Position numbers and translations under genes: made by a program | Part shown: in pieces, positions 42,976 through 48,270 of the stretch | How positions within the stretch are numbered: position 1 is the first letter of the stretch | Layout of the letters: each line of letters opens with the position of its first letter | Assembly: GCF_040947875.1 (NCBI RefSeq) | Contig: NZ_JBFRXN010000002.1 | Location: 2,666,001 to 2,730,000, forward strand | Reading direction: 5' to 3' | DNA: 64,000 nt | Source of the DNA: Pseudomonas sp. MYb118 | GTDB taxonomy: Bacteria; Pseudomonadota; Gammaproteobacteria; Pseudomonadales; Pseudomonadaceae | Notes under the pieces: generated by a model | The model's database searches: none | Told to the model about the DNA's origin: nothing | What the model saw: the letters and a program-made list of their open reading frames with translations, nothing else

Positions 42976-43347
42976 TCAGCGGCTCGCGGCCAGCGTAATC
43001 GACACCGACTCGGCAAAACGCAGGGCGTGGGGCTTGTCGACTTCCACTTCCGCGTACAGCACCGAGGTGTTGGCCATGACCAGGTCGAGGATTTCCTGGG
43101 TCAGGCGTTCGAGCAGAGCAAAACGATTGCCCTCGACGTGGGCGATGATCGCCTTGGTGATGGTGCGGTAGTTCAACGCGTGATCAATGTCGTTGTCGCG
43201 CACCGCTTCCTGGGCGGCGTACAGGATCGTCAGGTTGATCAGCACGTCCTGCTTGTTGAGGATCTCGTCCTCGTTGATGCCGATGTAGGTGCGCAGGCAC
43301 AGGTCCTTGACCCGGATGCGTGCCATGCCTGGTTGAAGTTGTGGCAT
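42976..43347 (-). CDS. folX: Dihydroneopterin triphosphate 2'-epimerase FolX
   Basis: Epimerises dihydroneopterin triphosphate to dihydromonapterin triphosphate, feeding tetrahydromonapterin, the cofactor of phenylalanine hydroxylase in Pseudomonas. 123 residues with the FolB/FolX fold: [31 protein letters not shown] and an internal [28 protein letters not shown]. FolX rather than FolB is supported by the adjacent folE and folM. The start at 43347 lies 2 bp after the folE stop. Confidence 0.93.
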
Positions 43348-43349
43348 TA

Positions 43350-43925
43350 CTACTTGCTCCGTCCAATCAATTGCAGGAACTCCTGGCGGGTGTTGCTCGA
43401 CTCGCGGAAGGCGCCGAGCATCACCGAGGTGTTCATGGTCGAATTCTGTTTTTCGACGCCGCGCATCATCATGCACATGTGCTGTGCCTCGATGACCACC
43501 GCGACACCGGCCGCCCCGGTGACTTGCTGCACCGCGTCGGCGATCTGCCGGGTGAGGTTTTCCTGGATTTGCAGGCGCCGGGCGAACATATCCACCAGCC
43601 GCGCAATCTTCGACAGGCCCAGCACCTTGCCCGTGGGAATATAAGCCACATGCGCCTTGCCGATGAAGGGCAGCATGTGATGTTCGCAAAGCGAGTACAA
43701 CTCGATGTTGTCGACGATCACCATTTCATCGTTGTCGGAGGCGAACAGCGCGCCGTTGACGATTTCCTCGACGCTCTGCCCATAGCCGTGACACAGGTAC
43801 TGCATGGCCTTGGCTGCGCGCATCGGGGTGTCGAGCAGGCCTTCGCGGTCGGGATTCTCGCCCAGGCCGACGAGAATCTCGCGATAACTGTGGGACAGGG
43901 CATTTTGAGCCGGGGCTAACGTCAT
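43350..43925 (-). CDS. folE: GTP cyclohydrolase I FolE
   Basis: Converts GTP to dihydroneopterin triphosphate. 191 residues; zinc and active-site residues lie in [33 protein letters not shown] and [21 protein letters not shown]. It is the middle gene of folM-folE-folX, so this copy probably supplies monapterin rather than folate. In P. putida a folE of this context belongs to a light-induced regulon, as I recall, which fits the nearby LOV and MerR genes. Confidence 0.95.
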
Positions 43926-43943
43926 GATGATCCTCTGCGTGGC

Positions 43944-44654
43944 CTACTTGAGGTGCCGCCCGCCATTGACGGTCAGGGTCGTGCCGGTGACATACGGGTT
44001 GTCGAGCAAATAACGCAGGCTCTGGTAGATCACTTCGCTGCCGGGCTCGATGCCCATTGCCGATTTGGCCAGTGCCTTGGCGCGGTACGCCGCGTCGTCG
44101 TGCGTATTGAACATTAGCAGGGCCGGGGCGATGCCGTTGACCTTGATCGCCGGCGCGTAACGGGCGGCGAAGGACAGGGTCAAGCTGTCGAGCCCGGCCT
44201 TGCTGGCGCAGTAGCCGATGTGCTGGCTGCTGCCCTTGCGTGTGACGTCATCGCCGATGTGCACGATGTCGGCAGGCTGCGAGCGGTGCAGCAGGTCGGC
44301 GCAGTGCAGGTTGATCAGGTAGGGCGCGAGCATGTGCACGCTGAACAGGCGAGTGAACACCTGCGCTTCGCTGCCCGGTGTCTCGGCCAGCCATTCCGAC
44401 GCGTTGTGGATGATCGCGCGCAGGCTGTGCGTGTGAGTCTTCAGTTCGTTGATGAACGCCAGGATGCCGGCTTCGCTGGACAAGTCGGCGAACACTGCCG
44501 TTGCGCCCAGGTCGCGCAGGGTCTGTACACCTGGGCGTTCGCTGCGATAGCTGAAGATCACGGCATGCCCGTCTTCGAGCAACCGCTGCGCACAATGCAG
44601 GCCGACGCGCTGGGCAGCGCCGGTGATGAGGATCGGAGCGGAAGAAGAGGTCAT
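43944..44654 (-). CDS. folM: Dihydromonapterin reductase FolM
   Basis: Short-chain reductase that reduces dihydromonapterin to the tetrahydro form. 236 residues; Rossmann motif ILITGAAQRVGLHCAQRLLEDGHAVIFSYR with the arginine-type NADPH site, and catalytic YCASK (Y-x3-K) near residue 150. First gene of the operon; a TATAGT-like -10 sequence lies about 25-30 bp before its start on the minus strand. Confidence 0.92.
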   Translation of the reverse strand: MTSSSAPILITGAAQRVGLHCAQRLLEDGHAVIFSYRSERPGVQTLRDLGATAVFADLSSEAGILAFINELKTHTHSLRAIIHNASEWLAETPGSEAQVFTRLFSVHMLAPYLINLHCADLLHRSQPADIVHIGDDVTRKGSSQHIGYCASKAGLDSLTLSFAARYAPAIKVNGIAPALLMFNTHDDAAYRAKALAKSAMGIEPGSEVIYQSLRYLLDNPYVTGTTLTVNGGRHLK

Positions 44655-44726
44655 GAACGGCTCGCGTCGCGGTGAGGGTAAAACTATACCAGCGCAACCG
44701 CCACGGCCACAGATCTACCGCGTTCC

Positions 44727-44827
44727 TGTAGGAGCGAGCTTGCTCGCGATTGATCGCCAACGATGACGATGTCTGCCTGACACACAGCGGTGTCAGTGAC
44801 TCCATCGCGAGCAAGCTCGCTCCTACA
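44727..44827. repeat. REPIN (inverted REP pair), copy 8
   Basis: Left arm TGTAGGAGCGAGCTTGCTCG at 44727, right arm CAAGCTCGCTCCTACA ending 44827, spacer with CACACAGCGGTGTCAGTGAC, similar to copy 5. It lies between folM and the monooxygenase-like gene, both on the minus strand, and separates their transcripts. Confidence 0.92.
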
Positions 44828-44845
44828 GGGGGGGGCGTCGCAGTG

Positions 44846-45403
44846 TCAGCGAGCTTCCGCGGGCGAGCGGCGGATCGGCGTGGCGTTCAACCACCCCGCC
44901 AGCAACCTTGTCGACAACGGAATGAAGAAGTACACCATCAGCGGCGTCAGGCACAGGGTGCTGATCATCACCCTGGGCAGCAGGCTCATCTCGCCGAGCA
45001 GCGGGCCCAGGACAAAATTGAACAGCAGCGACACCGGGAAGAACGCCAGCCAGATCGCCACCGCCTGTTTCCAGCGTGGTGGTCGTGCGCCGGCGGCGCC
45101 GAACCAGCCTTCGATGCCGCTCACGCGGTGTTCGGTCTTGTGCGCGAACAGGTCGCTGCCCCGGGCCAGCCAGGCCGTGCGCGATGCGGAGTGTTCCCAG
45201 GCGTGCATGGTCTGCTCGTTGGCGAAGCGGAAGATGATCTGGAATTCGTCGCCATCGGGTGGCGGGGCGAGTACGCCGGAGCCCAGGTAGCCCTGGAAGT
45301 CGGTGGCCAGTTGTTCGCCTTCGCGCAACCAGGTCATCAGGTCCTGATAGCGTCCATCGGCGACGCGGCGGGCAACCATCAGCGTGACGGGTGAGGTAGT
45401 CAT
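44846..45403 (-). CDS. ABM-domain protein with C-terminal membrane helices
   Basis: 185 residues. The N-terminal about 95 residues match an antibiotic biosynthesis monooxygenase/dimeric ferredoxin-like domain (VTLMVARRVADGRYQDLMTWLREGEQLATDFQGYLGSGVL, then EFQIIFRFANEQTMHAWEHS). The C-terminal part has two hydrophobic segments (about 118-140 and 145-170). Such ABM plus membrane proteins are uncharacterised and may bind heme or quinone-like small molecules at the membrane. The start at 45403 is the family N-terminus; the frame continues upstream across the divergent MerR gene. Confidence 0.8.
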   Translation of the reverse strand: MTTSPVTLMVARRVADGRYQDLMTWLREGEQLATDFQGYLGSGVLAPPPDGDEFQIIFRFANEQTMHAWEHSASRTAWLARGSDLFAHKTEHRVSGIEGWFGAAGARPPRWKQAVAIWLAFFPVSLLFNFVLGPLLGEMSLLPRVMISTLCLTPLMVYFFIPLSTRLLAGWLNATPIRRSPAEAR

Positions 45404-45614
45404 TGTGTAACTCCGTAGGTCTATCGCGCCACTCCGGATAGGAGTTTCGCCAGGCGCAGCGCCGGGGTGGTGGGCTGCGTCTCGGTACAAGCAAGGAATA
45501 CGCCGGATTCTACAGGTTATGCGCCCGGGAATCGTCATCGAGCAATGCCTTGAATAGGGAGGGGGTAGGCGAGGTAAGATAGGATCCAATTTGCACAATA
45601 GCGTTGTCCGCCCA

Positions 45615-46571
45615 ATGCCTGTACTGATTGACGATGTCACGGGTTCCCCAGCAGCTGTTCCTTCAGCGCAGGACGAGCTGTTTCCGATTCGCGAAGTGTC
45701 CCGGCTCACTGGCGTCAACCCGGTCACGCTGCGCGCCTGGGAGCGCCGTTATGGCCTGATCCAGCCCACGCGCACCGAAAGCGGGCATCGTTTGTATGCC
45801 CTGGCCGATATCGAGCGGGTCCACAGCATTCTGGGTTGGCTCGACCGTGGCGTTGCGGTGAGCAAGGTCGGCAAGATCCTGGCCAAGGTCTCGCCGCTCC
45901 AGGCGCTCTCGCACATCATTCCCGATGAACTGGTGCAGGCCGACTACGCGCAATGGCAGCAACAGGTGCATGCCGCGGTCAGCGCCTTCGACGATATTCA
46001 ACTCGATCAGGTCTACGGGCAGATCTTTTCCAGCTACTCCCAGTCGGTGGTGTTCCAGGACATCCTGATCCCGCTGTGGAAACAGTTGCTACAGCGTCAG
46101 GATCAGTTCGGCCAGACCAGCGAGTGGCTGTTTTACGATGGCTACCTGCGCACGCGGGTCCTGCAACGGCTGCTGCTGATGCGCAATTCGCCGCGGCGGG
46201 TGATCATCAGCGCCCTGGCCGGGCAATGTCGCGAGCTTGAATTGCTGGTGGCGGCGTTGTTCCTCAGCGGCAACGACATGGGCGTGCGCTTGCTGACCAT
46301 CGGCCAGCCCCTCGATGAACTGACGCTGGTCTGCGAAAAGATCAAGCCACAGGCATTGGTCCTCTTTTCCAATCACGCACCGGCGCCCGACTTGCCGCGA
46401 CGGCTGAACCGGCTGGCCATGAGTCTGGATTGTCAGTTGATGCTGGCCGGGGACGCGTCCGATCTGGCCGAGGACAGCCTGGCCGGAACGTCCATCGGCT
46501 GTCTGGGTAACGAAGGCATGGAAATGCGCCAGCGTCTGCGGCAGTTCCTTGCGGGTAACCTGGATACCTGA
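45615..46571 (+). CDS. MerR regulator with a cobalamin-domain-like C-terminus (class II LitR-like)
   Basis: About 318 residues. The N-terminal winged helix is a MerR domain (FPIREVSRLTGVNPVTLRAWERRYGLIQPTRTESGHRLYALADIERV). The rest resembles the helical-bundle and B12-binding domains of CarH/LitR (VFQDILIPLWKQLLQ, ISALAGQCRELELLVAALFLSGNDMGVRLLTIGQPLDEL), but the DxHxxG cobalamin motif is missing: GQCRELELL stands at that place. That is the pattern reported for class II LitR, which does not sense light through B12 itself. ATG at 45615 has no clear ribosome site; an in-frame TTG at 45591 follows AGGA by about 6 nt and may be the real start. Confidence 0.84.
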   Translation: MPVLIDDVTGSPAAVPSAQDELFPIREVSRLTGVNPVTLRAWERRYGLIQPTRTESGHRLYALADIERVHSILGWLDRGVAVSKVGKILAKVSPLQALSHIIPDELVQADYAQWQQQVHAAVSAFDDIQLDQVYGQIFSSYSQSVVFQDILIPLWKQLLQRQDQFGQTSEWLFYDGYLRTRVLQRLLLMRNSPRRVIISALAGQCRELELLVAALFLSGNDMGVRLLTIGQPLDELTLVCEKIKPQALVLFSNHAPAPDLPRRLNRLAMSLDCQLMLAGDASDLAEDSLAGTSIGCLGNEGMEMRQRLRQFLAGNLDT

Positions 46572-46572
46572 A

Positions 46573-47178
46573 TCAGAGGTGCAGGGCGGGATGGGTCAGC
46601 CGATGCTGCTGCAGGATGAACTGGCGCAGGCGCTCGGTTTCGTCCGTGTCGCTCTGGTTCAGTTGATAGGCATAGAAACCATTTTCGGCTTCTTTCTCGA
46701 AGGTGCCGCGCATCGCAATGCGTTCATAACCTGACGGGCTGAACCACAGGGCGAAATGCTTGGGTGGCTTGGTCTTGTTGCGCACTTCCAGCAGAACGCC
46801 TTTGAAAGACACCTCGTGCACCCACAGCGTGCCGGGCTGGCCATTGGCGTTTTCCAGGGCGACCGGTTCGTCGAGTACCAGCCGCCATGGCCGCACCGAC
46901 GGGCCATCTTCATAGATGCTGGGCACGCCCAGGCGCAAATGCAGCGCATGAAACTCGTCTTCCACCAGGTGCAGTGGAAAGGTCATTTGCTGGTTTTCGA
47001 AATTCGCCTGAATGGTGACTTGCTCATGGGCCGCGAGGCGTGTGAGCAGGTCACGGATTTGCGATCCACCGTTGACGAGCAGACTCGAGTTCGCATCCCG
47101 AACGTTGAGTTTCGGGTTGTGTTGCATGGACTGGATGTAATCCAGCTCGTCCTGGGTCAGGAGTGCGTCACGGTGCAT
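46573..47178 (-). CDS. Uncharacterised protein, possible degenerate PilZ/YcgR-like
   Basis: A 201-residue soluble protein with no signal peptide or membrane helix. Residues about 35-90 (GGSQIRDLLTRLAAHEQVTIQANFENQQMTFPLHLVED) have the beta-rich look of a YcgR N-domain, and 115-160 (GTLWVHEVSFKGVLLEV) recalls the PilZ (D/N)xSxxG motif with the acidic residue missing. No RxxxR motif was found, so c-di-GMP binding is doubtful. It is convergent with the MerR gene (1 nt between stops) and upstream of the LOV gene's end on the same strand. Confidence 0.6.
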   Translation of the reverse strand: MHRDALLTQDELDYIQSMQHNPKLNVRDANSSLLVNGGSQIRDLLTRLAAHEQVTIQANFENQQMTFPLHLVEDEFHALHLRLGVPSIYEDGPSVRPWRLVLDEPVALENANGQPGTLWVHEVSFKGVLLEVRNKTKPPKHFALWFSPSGYERIAMRGTFEKEAENGFYAYQLNQSDTDETERLRQFILQQHRLTHPALHL

Positions 47179-47254
47179 GATCGGCTCGAAAGATTAAGTT
47201 ACAAAGGCATTCAACGGTGATTGTAGTTAATGACATTCAATTCTTTATTTTGTT

Positions 47255-47713
47255 TTAGCCGTTCGTCGCTTTTAATTGGGCGAGTTCGCGTTGCAGCTCG
47301 GCGACCTGTGCTTCCAGCTGCGCAACCCGCTGCTGCGCCTTGACCTGAACGGTGACGTCTTTTTGCACACCGACAAAATACGTCTGGCCGTCGTTCGCGT
47401 TTTTCACGGTCGTCAGCGACAGCTCATTCCAGAAGGGCGTGCCGTCCTTTCGATAATTGCGCAGCACTTCGCGGCAGGAACCGTCGCGGGCCAGCGTGTC
47501 GCGAATGGTGTCCAGCGCTTGCTGGTCACGATCGCCCGATTGCAGGAAGCGGCAATCCTGATACAGGATCTCTTCGCTGCTGTAGCCGGTCAGGCGTTCG
47601 AAAGCCGGGTTGACGTAAATCAGGATGTTGTCGTGCTCGCCTTCTCGTTCGGCGATCACGATGCCGTCGTTGGACGCGTCGATCACCATCTGCAGCAGTT
47701 GGGCGTTGATCAT
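47255..47713 (-). CDS. Short LOV blue-light photoreceptor
   Basis: A 152-residue stand-alone LOV domain protein very like the short LOV proteins of P. putida (PpSB1-LOV). The flavin motif YQDCRFLQ contains the photoactive C54 and R55; N86 (NYRKDG), N96 (FWNELSL) and Q117 (VGVQKDV) are the flavin-contacting residues. A C-terminal coiled helix (QVKAQQRVAQLEAQVAELQRELAQL) would form the dimer. It has no output domain, so it must act by protein contact; the nearby class II LitR-like regulator is a plausible partner. Divergent from the flavodoxin gene. Confidence 0.94.
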   Translation of the reverse strand: MINAQLLQMVIDASNDGIVIAEREGEHDNILIYVNPAFERLTGYSSEEILYQDCRFLQSGDRDQQALDTIRDTLARDGSCREVLRNYRKDGTPFWNELSLTTVKNANDGQTYFVGVQKDVTVQVKAQQRVAQLEAQVAELQRELAQLKATNG

Positions 47714-47814: not shown

Positions 47815-48270
47815 ATGAAAGTCGCCATCCTTTCCGGCTCGGTCTACGGCACGGCTGAAGAAGTCGCCCGCCACGCCGCGAGCCTATTGAAAACTGCGGG
47901 TTTCGAGGTATTCCACAACCCTCGCGCCAGCTACGCCGATGTCCAGGCCTTCGGCCCCGAAGCGTTCCTGGCCGTGACCTCGACCACCGGTCTTGGCGAG
48001 TTGCCGGACAACCTGCAACCGATGTACTTCGCCATCCGCGATCAGCTGCCGGCGCAATGGCGCGGTCTGCCGGGCGCGGTGATCGCTCTGGGCGACGCCA
48101 GTTACGGCGACACCTTCTGCGGTGGCGGTGAACTGATGCGCGAGCTGCTGGGTGAAATGGGGGTTCGCGAAGTGCTGCCGATGTTGCGCCTGGACGCCAG
48201 CGAAAGCGTGACCCCGGAAACCGACGCCGAGCCTTGGCTGGCGGACCTGATCAGCGCTCTGCGCGGCTGA
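47815..48270 (+). CDS. Flavodoxin-like protein
   Basis: A 151-residue FMN flavodoxin (MioC/FldP-like). The phosphate-binding loop is SGSVYGTAEEVARHAA at the N-terminus, and the isoalloxazine loops are TSTTGLGELPDN and GDASYGDTFCGGGE. Electron partner unknown. The ATG at 47815 is preferred over the TTG one codon before. The gene ends 20 nt inside the convergent LysR gene. Confidence 0.9.
   Translation: MKVAILSGSVYGTAEEVARHAASLLKTAGFEVFHNPRASYADVQAFGPEAFLAVTSTTGLGELPDNLQPMYFAIRDQLPAQWRGLPGAVIALGDASYGDTFCGGGELMRELLGEMGVREVLPMLRLDASESVTPETDAEPWLADLISALRG

Follow-up and report, generated by a model that had tools for sequence, protein, structure and literature searches.

We consider it likely that the window, by which we mean the whole 64,000-nucleotide stretch of Pseudomonas sp. 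MYb118 DNA analysed here, carries the sensor and one repressor of a known blue-light switch whose operators lie 2 Mb away, that both genes are set into a core block of fol, ABM, PilZ-type and flavodoxin genes, and that light control of the fol genes is probably weak or absent. In the dark, the class II LitR protein would bind operators of the type TRTACA-N12-TGTAYA and repress; blue light would then lead to a Cys54-FMN adduct in the short LOV protein, which would bind LitR and remove it from the DNA. This exchange would take place at a double operator preceding rudS-litR1-phrB-SDR-FAD oxidoreductase-DUF1365-ufaM and at a lone operator in front of the neighbouring FAD oxidoreductase. The genes, the operators, their conservation and the joint absence of litR and LOV from other genomes were observed directly.

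Genes of the locus

All genes named in the initial annotation are present and lie on the strands given there, as judged from family models and open reading frames (Table 1), and the identities of folM, folE and folX are borne out by scores above the cut-offs of all three models. The genome measures 6.58 Mb in 4 contigs, and its nearest named relatives, by comparison of the LOV protein, include P. jessenii, P. mandelii, P. frederiksbergensis and strains named P. fluorescens. The ABM-like protein reaches 21.8 bits with the Pfam ABM model, against a cut-off of 23.1, and its hydrophobic stretches cover residues ~113-142 and ~145-164. In the gap between folM and the ABM gene lies an inverted pair of TGTAGGAGCGAGCTTGCTCGCGA-like sequences, as of REP elements (44725-44749 and 44805-44829), which is absent from several relatives.

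Table 1. Features of the locus, with positions in the window
Feature	Position	Strand	Remark
folX, dihydroneopterin triphosphate 2'-epimerase	42976-43347	-	above cut-off of NF008418
folE, GTP cyclohydrolase I	43350-43925	-	above cut-off of TIGR00063
folM, dihydromonapterin reductase	43944-44654	-	above cut-off of NF005066
Place of the folM operator of other lineages, apparently eroded in the window	44685-44708	-
ABM-like protein, hydrophobic segments at its C-terminus; belongs to the core block	44846-45403	-	Pfam ABM
Class II LitR (MerR family), 318 aa from the probable start ATG 45615	45615-46571	+	ORF opens at TTG 45591
Two-domain YcgR-type/PilZ-like protein (predicted), flanked by litR and LOV; core block member	46573-47178	-
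Short LOV blue-light receptor of 152 aa with Cys54; Leu67 aligns with PpSB1 Arg66	47255-47713	-
Flavodoxin, end of the core block	47815-48270	+	NF004343

The probable start of LitR is ATG 45615 (residue 9 of the longer frame), because 14 of the 89 relatives compared have stops in that frame, all inside its first 12 positions and none later. Its N-terminal MerR helix-turn-helix (HTH) scores above cut-off (PF13411, 4e-15). The initial annotation had ascribed to this regulator a cobalamin-domain-like C-terminus lacking DxHxxG; the motif is indeed absent, but the likeness is weak and amounts to a resemblance of the whole protein to CarH (phmmer alignment over residues 21-251, below the curated cut-off), and Pfam at E values up to 1 finds no B12 domain in it, nor the internal four-helix B12-binding_2 part reported for PmlR2. 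That domain is present in the LitR1 of the same genome. CarH and class I LitR thus have the MerR-type HTH and an overall likeness in common with the window protein, whereas the latter has neither DxHxxG nor a Pfam B12 domain, and its light sensor is a separate flavoprotein. By analogy with its orthologues, it is predicted to repress through TRTACA-N12-TGTAYA independently of B12. Candidate sites resembling the operator, and differing from it by 1 to 2 mismatches, occur shortly 5' of litR in four loci (L117, L120, L147 and L148), and sites with up to 2 mismatches precede litR at 7/90 loci, compared with 1.1 expected, hinting that litR may be autoregulated in some distant lineages, the window not being among them.

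The short LOV protein consists of a LOV core devoid of an effector domain and its nearest PDB chains are 7yx0, 7r5n and 7a6p; the photoactive Cys54, as originally annotated, is invariant in 17/17 aligned sequences. Leu67 aligns with Arg66 of PDB chain 29lw, which we take from its sequence to be PpSB1. The R66I exchange in PpSB1 is reported to make dark recovery ~100-fold faster (PMC6047819), and the light memory of the window protein is predicted from this residue to be shorter than that of PpSB1. The gap between the LOV and PilZ-type genes (47179-47254) shows strong conservation among 30 closely related loci (GTTACAAAG...GGTGATTGTAGTTAATGAC), the window carrying a 4-base insertion, and could contain a putative promoter of the PilZ-type gene.

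The published system in other Pseudomonas species

The locus is the counterpart, in a P. fluorescens-group-like genome, of a cluster described for P. mendocina NBRC 14162 that comprises pmlR2, PME15565, pmSB-LOV, folM-folE-folX and a hypothetical gene (Maruyama 2022, PMC9758184). Because that cluster has been published, the main idea of the initial annotation, a blue-light regulon formed by a class II LitR-like MerR protein, a short LOV receptor and monapterin genes, is of the right kind, without being new; the LitR-LOV module itself is already known. PmlR2 is described as a repressor, and light-activated PmSB-LOV binds its HTH part, abolishes DNA binding and restores run-off transcription (PMC9758184). 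Repression and light-dependent anti-repression are thus published for P. mendocina, the species for which alone the LOV FMN adduct and the light-dependent binding of LitR are established (PMC9758184), and we infer by analogy that the same mechanism would work in our strain. The PmlR2 sites, TGTACA-N12-TGTACA, are near the P. putida consensus TRTACA-N12-TGTAYA, and PmlR2 also shifts the folM promoter, which has the site TGTACA-N12-GGTATA 95 bp upstream of folM (PMC9758184). Light induces phrB and ufaM 25- to 33-fold, folM 2.4- to 2.5-fold and folE 1.6- to 3.3-fold (Table 1 of that report), and leaves pmlR2 (1.4-1.5) and pmSB-LOV (0.9-1.1) nearly unchanged; its authors describe the pmlR2-PME15565-LOV cluster as one that Pseudomonas conserves (PMC9758184). 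Together with the light dependence of folE2 in P. putida (PMC8508746), these values make the folE induction named in the initial annotation a real one in other species.

P. mendocina and the window have in common a class II LitR, a small gene in between, a short LOV and folM-folE-folX side by side, and the two genomes agree in the operator type at the litR1-phrB locus, with identical -35/-10 hexamers and a 16-bp spacer. They differ in that the window has no recognisable folM operator, and in that B12-binding_2, reported for PmlR2, is not found by Pfam in the window LitR. P. putida KT2440 shares with the window's genome, as cited, the operator consensus and the photolyase, ufaM and folE genes, which are light-induced in that species; it has three LitR (PplR1-3) and two short LOV proteins (PpSB1-LOV and PpSB2-LOV; Sumi 2020, as cited in PMC9758184 and PMC8508746), whereas the window's genome has two LitR and one short LOV.

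Co-occurrence of litR and LOV in a core block

Ninety loci were compared, namely the window and 89 relatives that favour genomes with this LitR because they were picked among the LitR matches listed; 29 of the loci had flanks of 1.5 kb only. The order folX-folE-folM-(ABM)-litR-PilZ-LOV-flavodoxin, whose recurrence in other genomes the initial annotation had proposed as a check, is found in nearly all of these loci, chosen as they were for a LitR match, with LOV at 89/90, the PilZ-type gene at 87/90 and ABM at 76/90. Twenty further loci were centred on the PilZ-type gene, 17 of them from genomes that lack the short LOV. In 16 of these 17, litR and LOV are both missing and the order of ABM, PilZ, flavodoxin and folM or another SDR is kept; in the seventeenth (G185), LOV alone is missing. 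Of the remaining three, one (G024) lacks both genes here and has the pair elsewhere, and two have both. Conversely, litR and LOV lie close together in five genomes from which the PilZ-type gene is absent (G006, G070, G079, G141 and G168). The fol, ABM, PilZ-type and flavodoxin genes are hence a core block, and litR and LOV occupy two of its gaps. Because the block persists without litR and LOV, and because five genomes keep the latter without PilZ, the ABM and PilZ-type genes occur independently of the light genes, contrary to the earlier suggestion that both could be unrecognised members of the regulon.

Among 199 genomes of the genus, LitR and LOV at E <= 1e-50 are both present in 170, both absent in 26 and unpaired in 3 (LOV only in G091 and G142, LitR only in G185), as read by hand from the match tables, where a LOV-paired LitR paralogue may count as present. 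This co-occurrence is what the initial annotation had called for. A rapid tree, built from two proteins and having long branches, shows 4 changes for LitR and 5 for LOV, and 3/3 independent pairs are concordant; since there are only three such pairs, the joint change is not significant (sign test, p 0.25), and the joint absence rests on few independent events. A second pair, in which LOV and LitR stand head to head beside a ufaM operon, was seen in two genomes (L272:6660-8233 of G192 and L273:6676-8245 of G024); its LitR is 38 percent identical to the window LitR and a double operator adjoins its LOV. Taken together, co-occurrence, joint absence, the second pair and the biochemistry of the orthologues support class II LitR and short LOV as one light module. 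The proposal that the genes of the locus act together holds to this extent; it is not supported for the fol genes of this strain, whose promoter shows no operator-like site.

The PilZ-type gene

The product of 46573-47178 has no Pfam match of its own, and no solved structure was matched by a profile of its family. The PilZ-like call holds nevertheless: PF07238 recognises 8 of the 37 members of the family, at best with 1.5e-7, and the model of the protein (mean pLDDT 81.6) resembles MrkH, YcgR, MotI and the PilZ domain of Alg44 (Foldseek E 2.6e-4 to 1e-3), indicating a PilZ barrel. Over the whole length, the likeness of the model to MrkH, YcgR and MotI is weak, the PilZ domains being closer; the predicted fold would thus be that of these two-domain PilZ proteins. 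The usual c-di-GMP motifs are RxxxR and [DN]xSxxG. Here, in contrast to YcgR, MrkH and MotI, they are altered to R96xxR99 and E122xS124xxG127, with R96, R99 and S124 invariant, and E122 and G127 kept in at least 90 percent, of the 37 members; ligand binding is putative. A literature search returned no paper joining PilZ and short LOV, and papers on PilZ, LitR and Pseudomonas were taken as unrelated from their titles and the openings of their abstracts; a link from pterin to c-di-GMP has been described (PMC13259868).

The folM operator and light control of the fol genes

Upstream of folM, a site with up to 2 mismatches occurs at 25 of 86 loci with a true folM, against 0.2 in shuffles. With 10 loci added and a spacer of 12, the operator is present at 20/96 loci at <=1 mismatch and 30/96 at <=2, compared with at most 1 and at most 8 loci, respectively, for other spacers from 8 to 16, and with 0 and at most 1 for two rearranged control motifs. 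Its state changes 6 times on the tree, where 17/93 rows have the site. Of the two halves, the inner one, TATACC, which overlaps the apparent -10, is widely conserved, and the outer one varies among loci. The window retains the inner half and has ACGGCC instead of TGTACA in the outer one, of which close relatives often retain a part (e.g. CGTACA or CGTTCA). At several loci (L039, L138, L141, L149, L242, L244, L247, L248 and L256-L261), an SDR only ~39-44 percent identical to folM takes its place.

In the window's folM promoter, the best operator match has 5 mismatches when the whole 194-bp gap is scanned and 6 within 130 bp, which is chance level; equally, the regions 45404-45614 and 44655-44730, earlier proposed for binding of the MerR protein, contain no operator-like site, at least 5 of 12 positions being wrong in the best match. 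The fol operon was therefore not upheld as a local LitR target, as neither its promoter nor that of litR offers such a site. The operator seems to have been eroded in this strain and to survive in other lineages, and because several of these have it and the window does not, light probably exerts little or no control over the pterin genes here, although a weak site departing from the consensus could serve folM. At loci without litR and LOV, the folM operator is kept in 5/9, three of the five being near relatives.

Operators elsewhere in the genome

At up to 1 mismatch, TRTACA-N12-TGTAYA occurs at 19 places in this genome, compared with 10 for the reversed pattern; 15 of the 19 were inspected, the other four lying on contigs C3 and C4. 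Two exact operators, 26 bp apart, stand upstream of rudS-litR1-phrB-SDR-FAD oxidoreductase-DUF1365-CMAS (ufaM)-DUF2878, as would be expected of a member of the LitR-LOV regulon, and a single site, TATACC-N12-TGTACA, precedes the neighbouring FAD oxidoreductase just upstream of this operon. The promoter of rudS-litR1-phrB, TTGACT-N16-TATGAT, has the hexamers and spacing printed for P. mendocina P6650. The litR1-phrB locus, 2 Mb from the window, is thus the likely LitR/LOV target in this strain as far as operator sequences indicate. The double operator is present in 145/199 genus genomes, against 0 with the reversed control. Two other exact matches (C2:911120 and C2:1451800) and nearly all inspected places with 1 mismatch were discarded as lying inside coding frames, and a match just before a lipoprotein-like frame (C2:1045130) was set aside as a probable chance hit. 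Across the whole window, matches at up to 3 mismatches number 35, above the shuffle mean of 15.6; none of them falls in the folM, litR or LOV promoter.

Genomes without LOV that keep LitR1 operators

Four LOV-less genomes retain double operators, one in G104 (L268) and two each in G127 (L267), G188 (L269) and G189 (L265), located before rudS-litR1-phrB and, in three genomes, before ufaM operons; G110 is like the G104 group for LOV and operator. The regulon is therefore not everywhere LOV-dependent. What, then, might relieve repression there? The LOV-less genomes were searched at E <= 1e-12, with loci L279, L285, L286, L287 and L291 left out of the count. At this threshold, G104, G127 and G189 have LOV profile matches without the adduct cysteine motif, G188 has no match and most other LOV-less genomes have LOV-domain proteins of other make-up; BLUF was found in 0/25 genomes. 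A class I LitR as sensor was considered and rejected for the LitR1 of the four genomes, each of which has a single LitR1 match without DxHxxG and with only B12-binding_2 by Pfam. Tentatively, and with more doubt than conviction, one may suppose that the class II LitR regulon extends beyond the range of its LOV sensor, that an undescribed light input or a non-light signal to LitR1 operates in these genomes, and that the LitR3/LOV pair flanking the PilZ-type gene is a detachable addition.

Extent of the light module

Do litR, LOV, the adjacent fol operon and perhaps the ABM and PilZ-type genes constitute a single local blue-light regulon in the strain analysed? In favour of this are the light induction of folM and folE and the PmlR2 shift of the folM promoter in P. 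mendocina (PMC9758184), the light-dependent folE2 of P. putida (PMC8508746) and the folM operator of several lineages; yet the window's folM and litR promoters are free of operator-like sites, the ABM and PilZ-type genes are retained where litR and LOV are missing, and the latter occur without PilZ, all of which makes a local regulon unlikely. At the opposite extreme, litR and LOV could be chance neighbours with no common function, and it is true that proximity alone proves little when the block exists without them, but we give this hardly any credence in view of the near-complete co-occurrence, the joint absence around a retained gene, the second pair elsewhere and the direct contact between the two orthologues in P. 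mendocina (PMC9758184).

A part for the PilZ-type protein as a working third component, tying the light signal to c-di-GMP, has some appeal given its place between litR and LOV at 87/90 loci, its conservation above that of LitR in the close group (e.g. 90 versus 76 percent) and its predicted YcgR-type fold. Its presence in 191/199 genomes and its retention in 16/17 fetched LOV-less genomes without litR and LOV at the locus led us to reject it as a dedicated part of the module, however, and its lack in five genomes with litR and LOV and its altered ligand motifs make even a working role very improbable. We thus prefer the reading of a sensor and one repressor acting on distant operators, and the evidence so far does not justify counting the neighbouring fol, ABM and PilZ-type genes as part of the light regulon in this strain.

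Biological meaning

What these comparisons add to the published module is a caution against inferring a regulon from proximity, since the pterin/ABM/PilZ block keeps its order independently of the light genes. While the photolyase operator is widespread, that of folM has switched state several times along the tree. This supplies a ready-made set of genomes for comparing monapterin synthesis under light control with monapterin synthesis free of it. Finally, the LOV-less genomes with LitR1 operators raise the question of whether class II LitR has other relievers.
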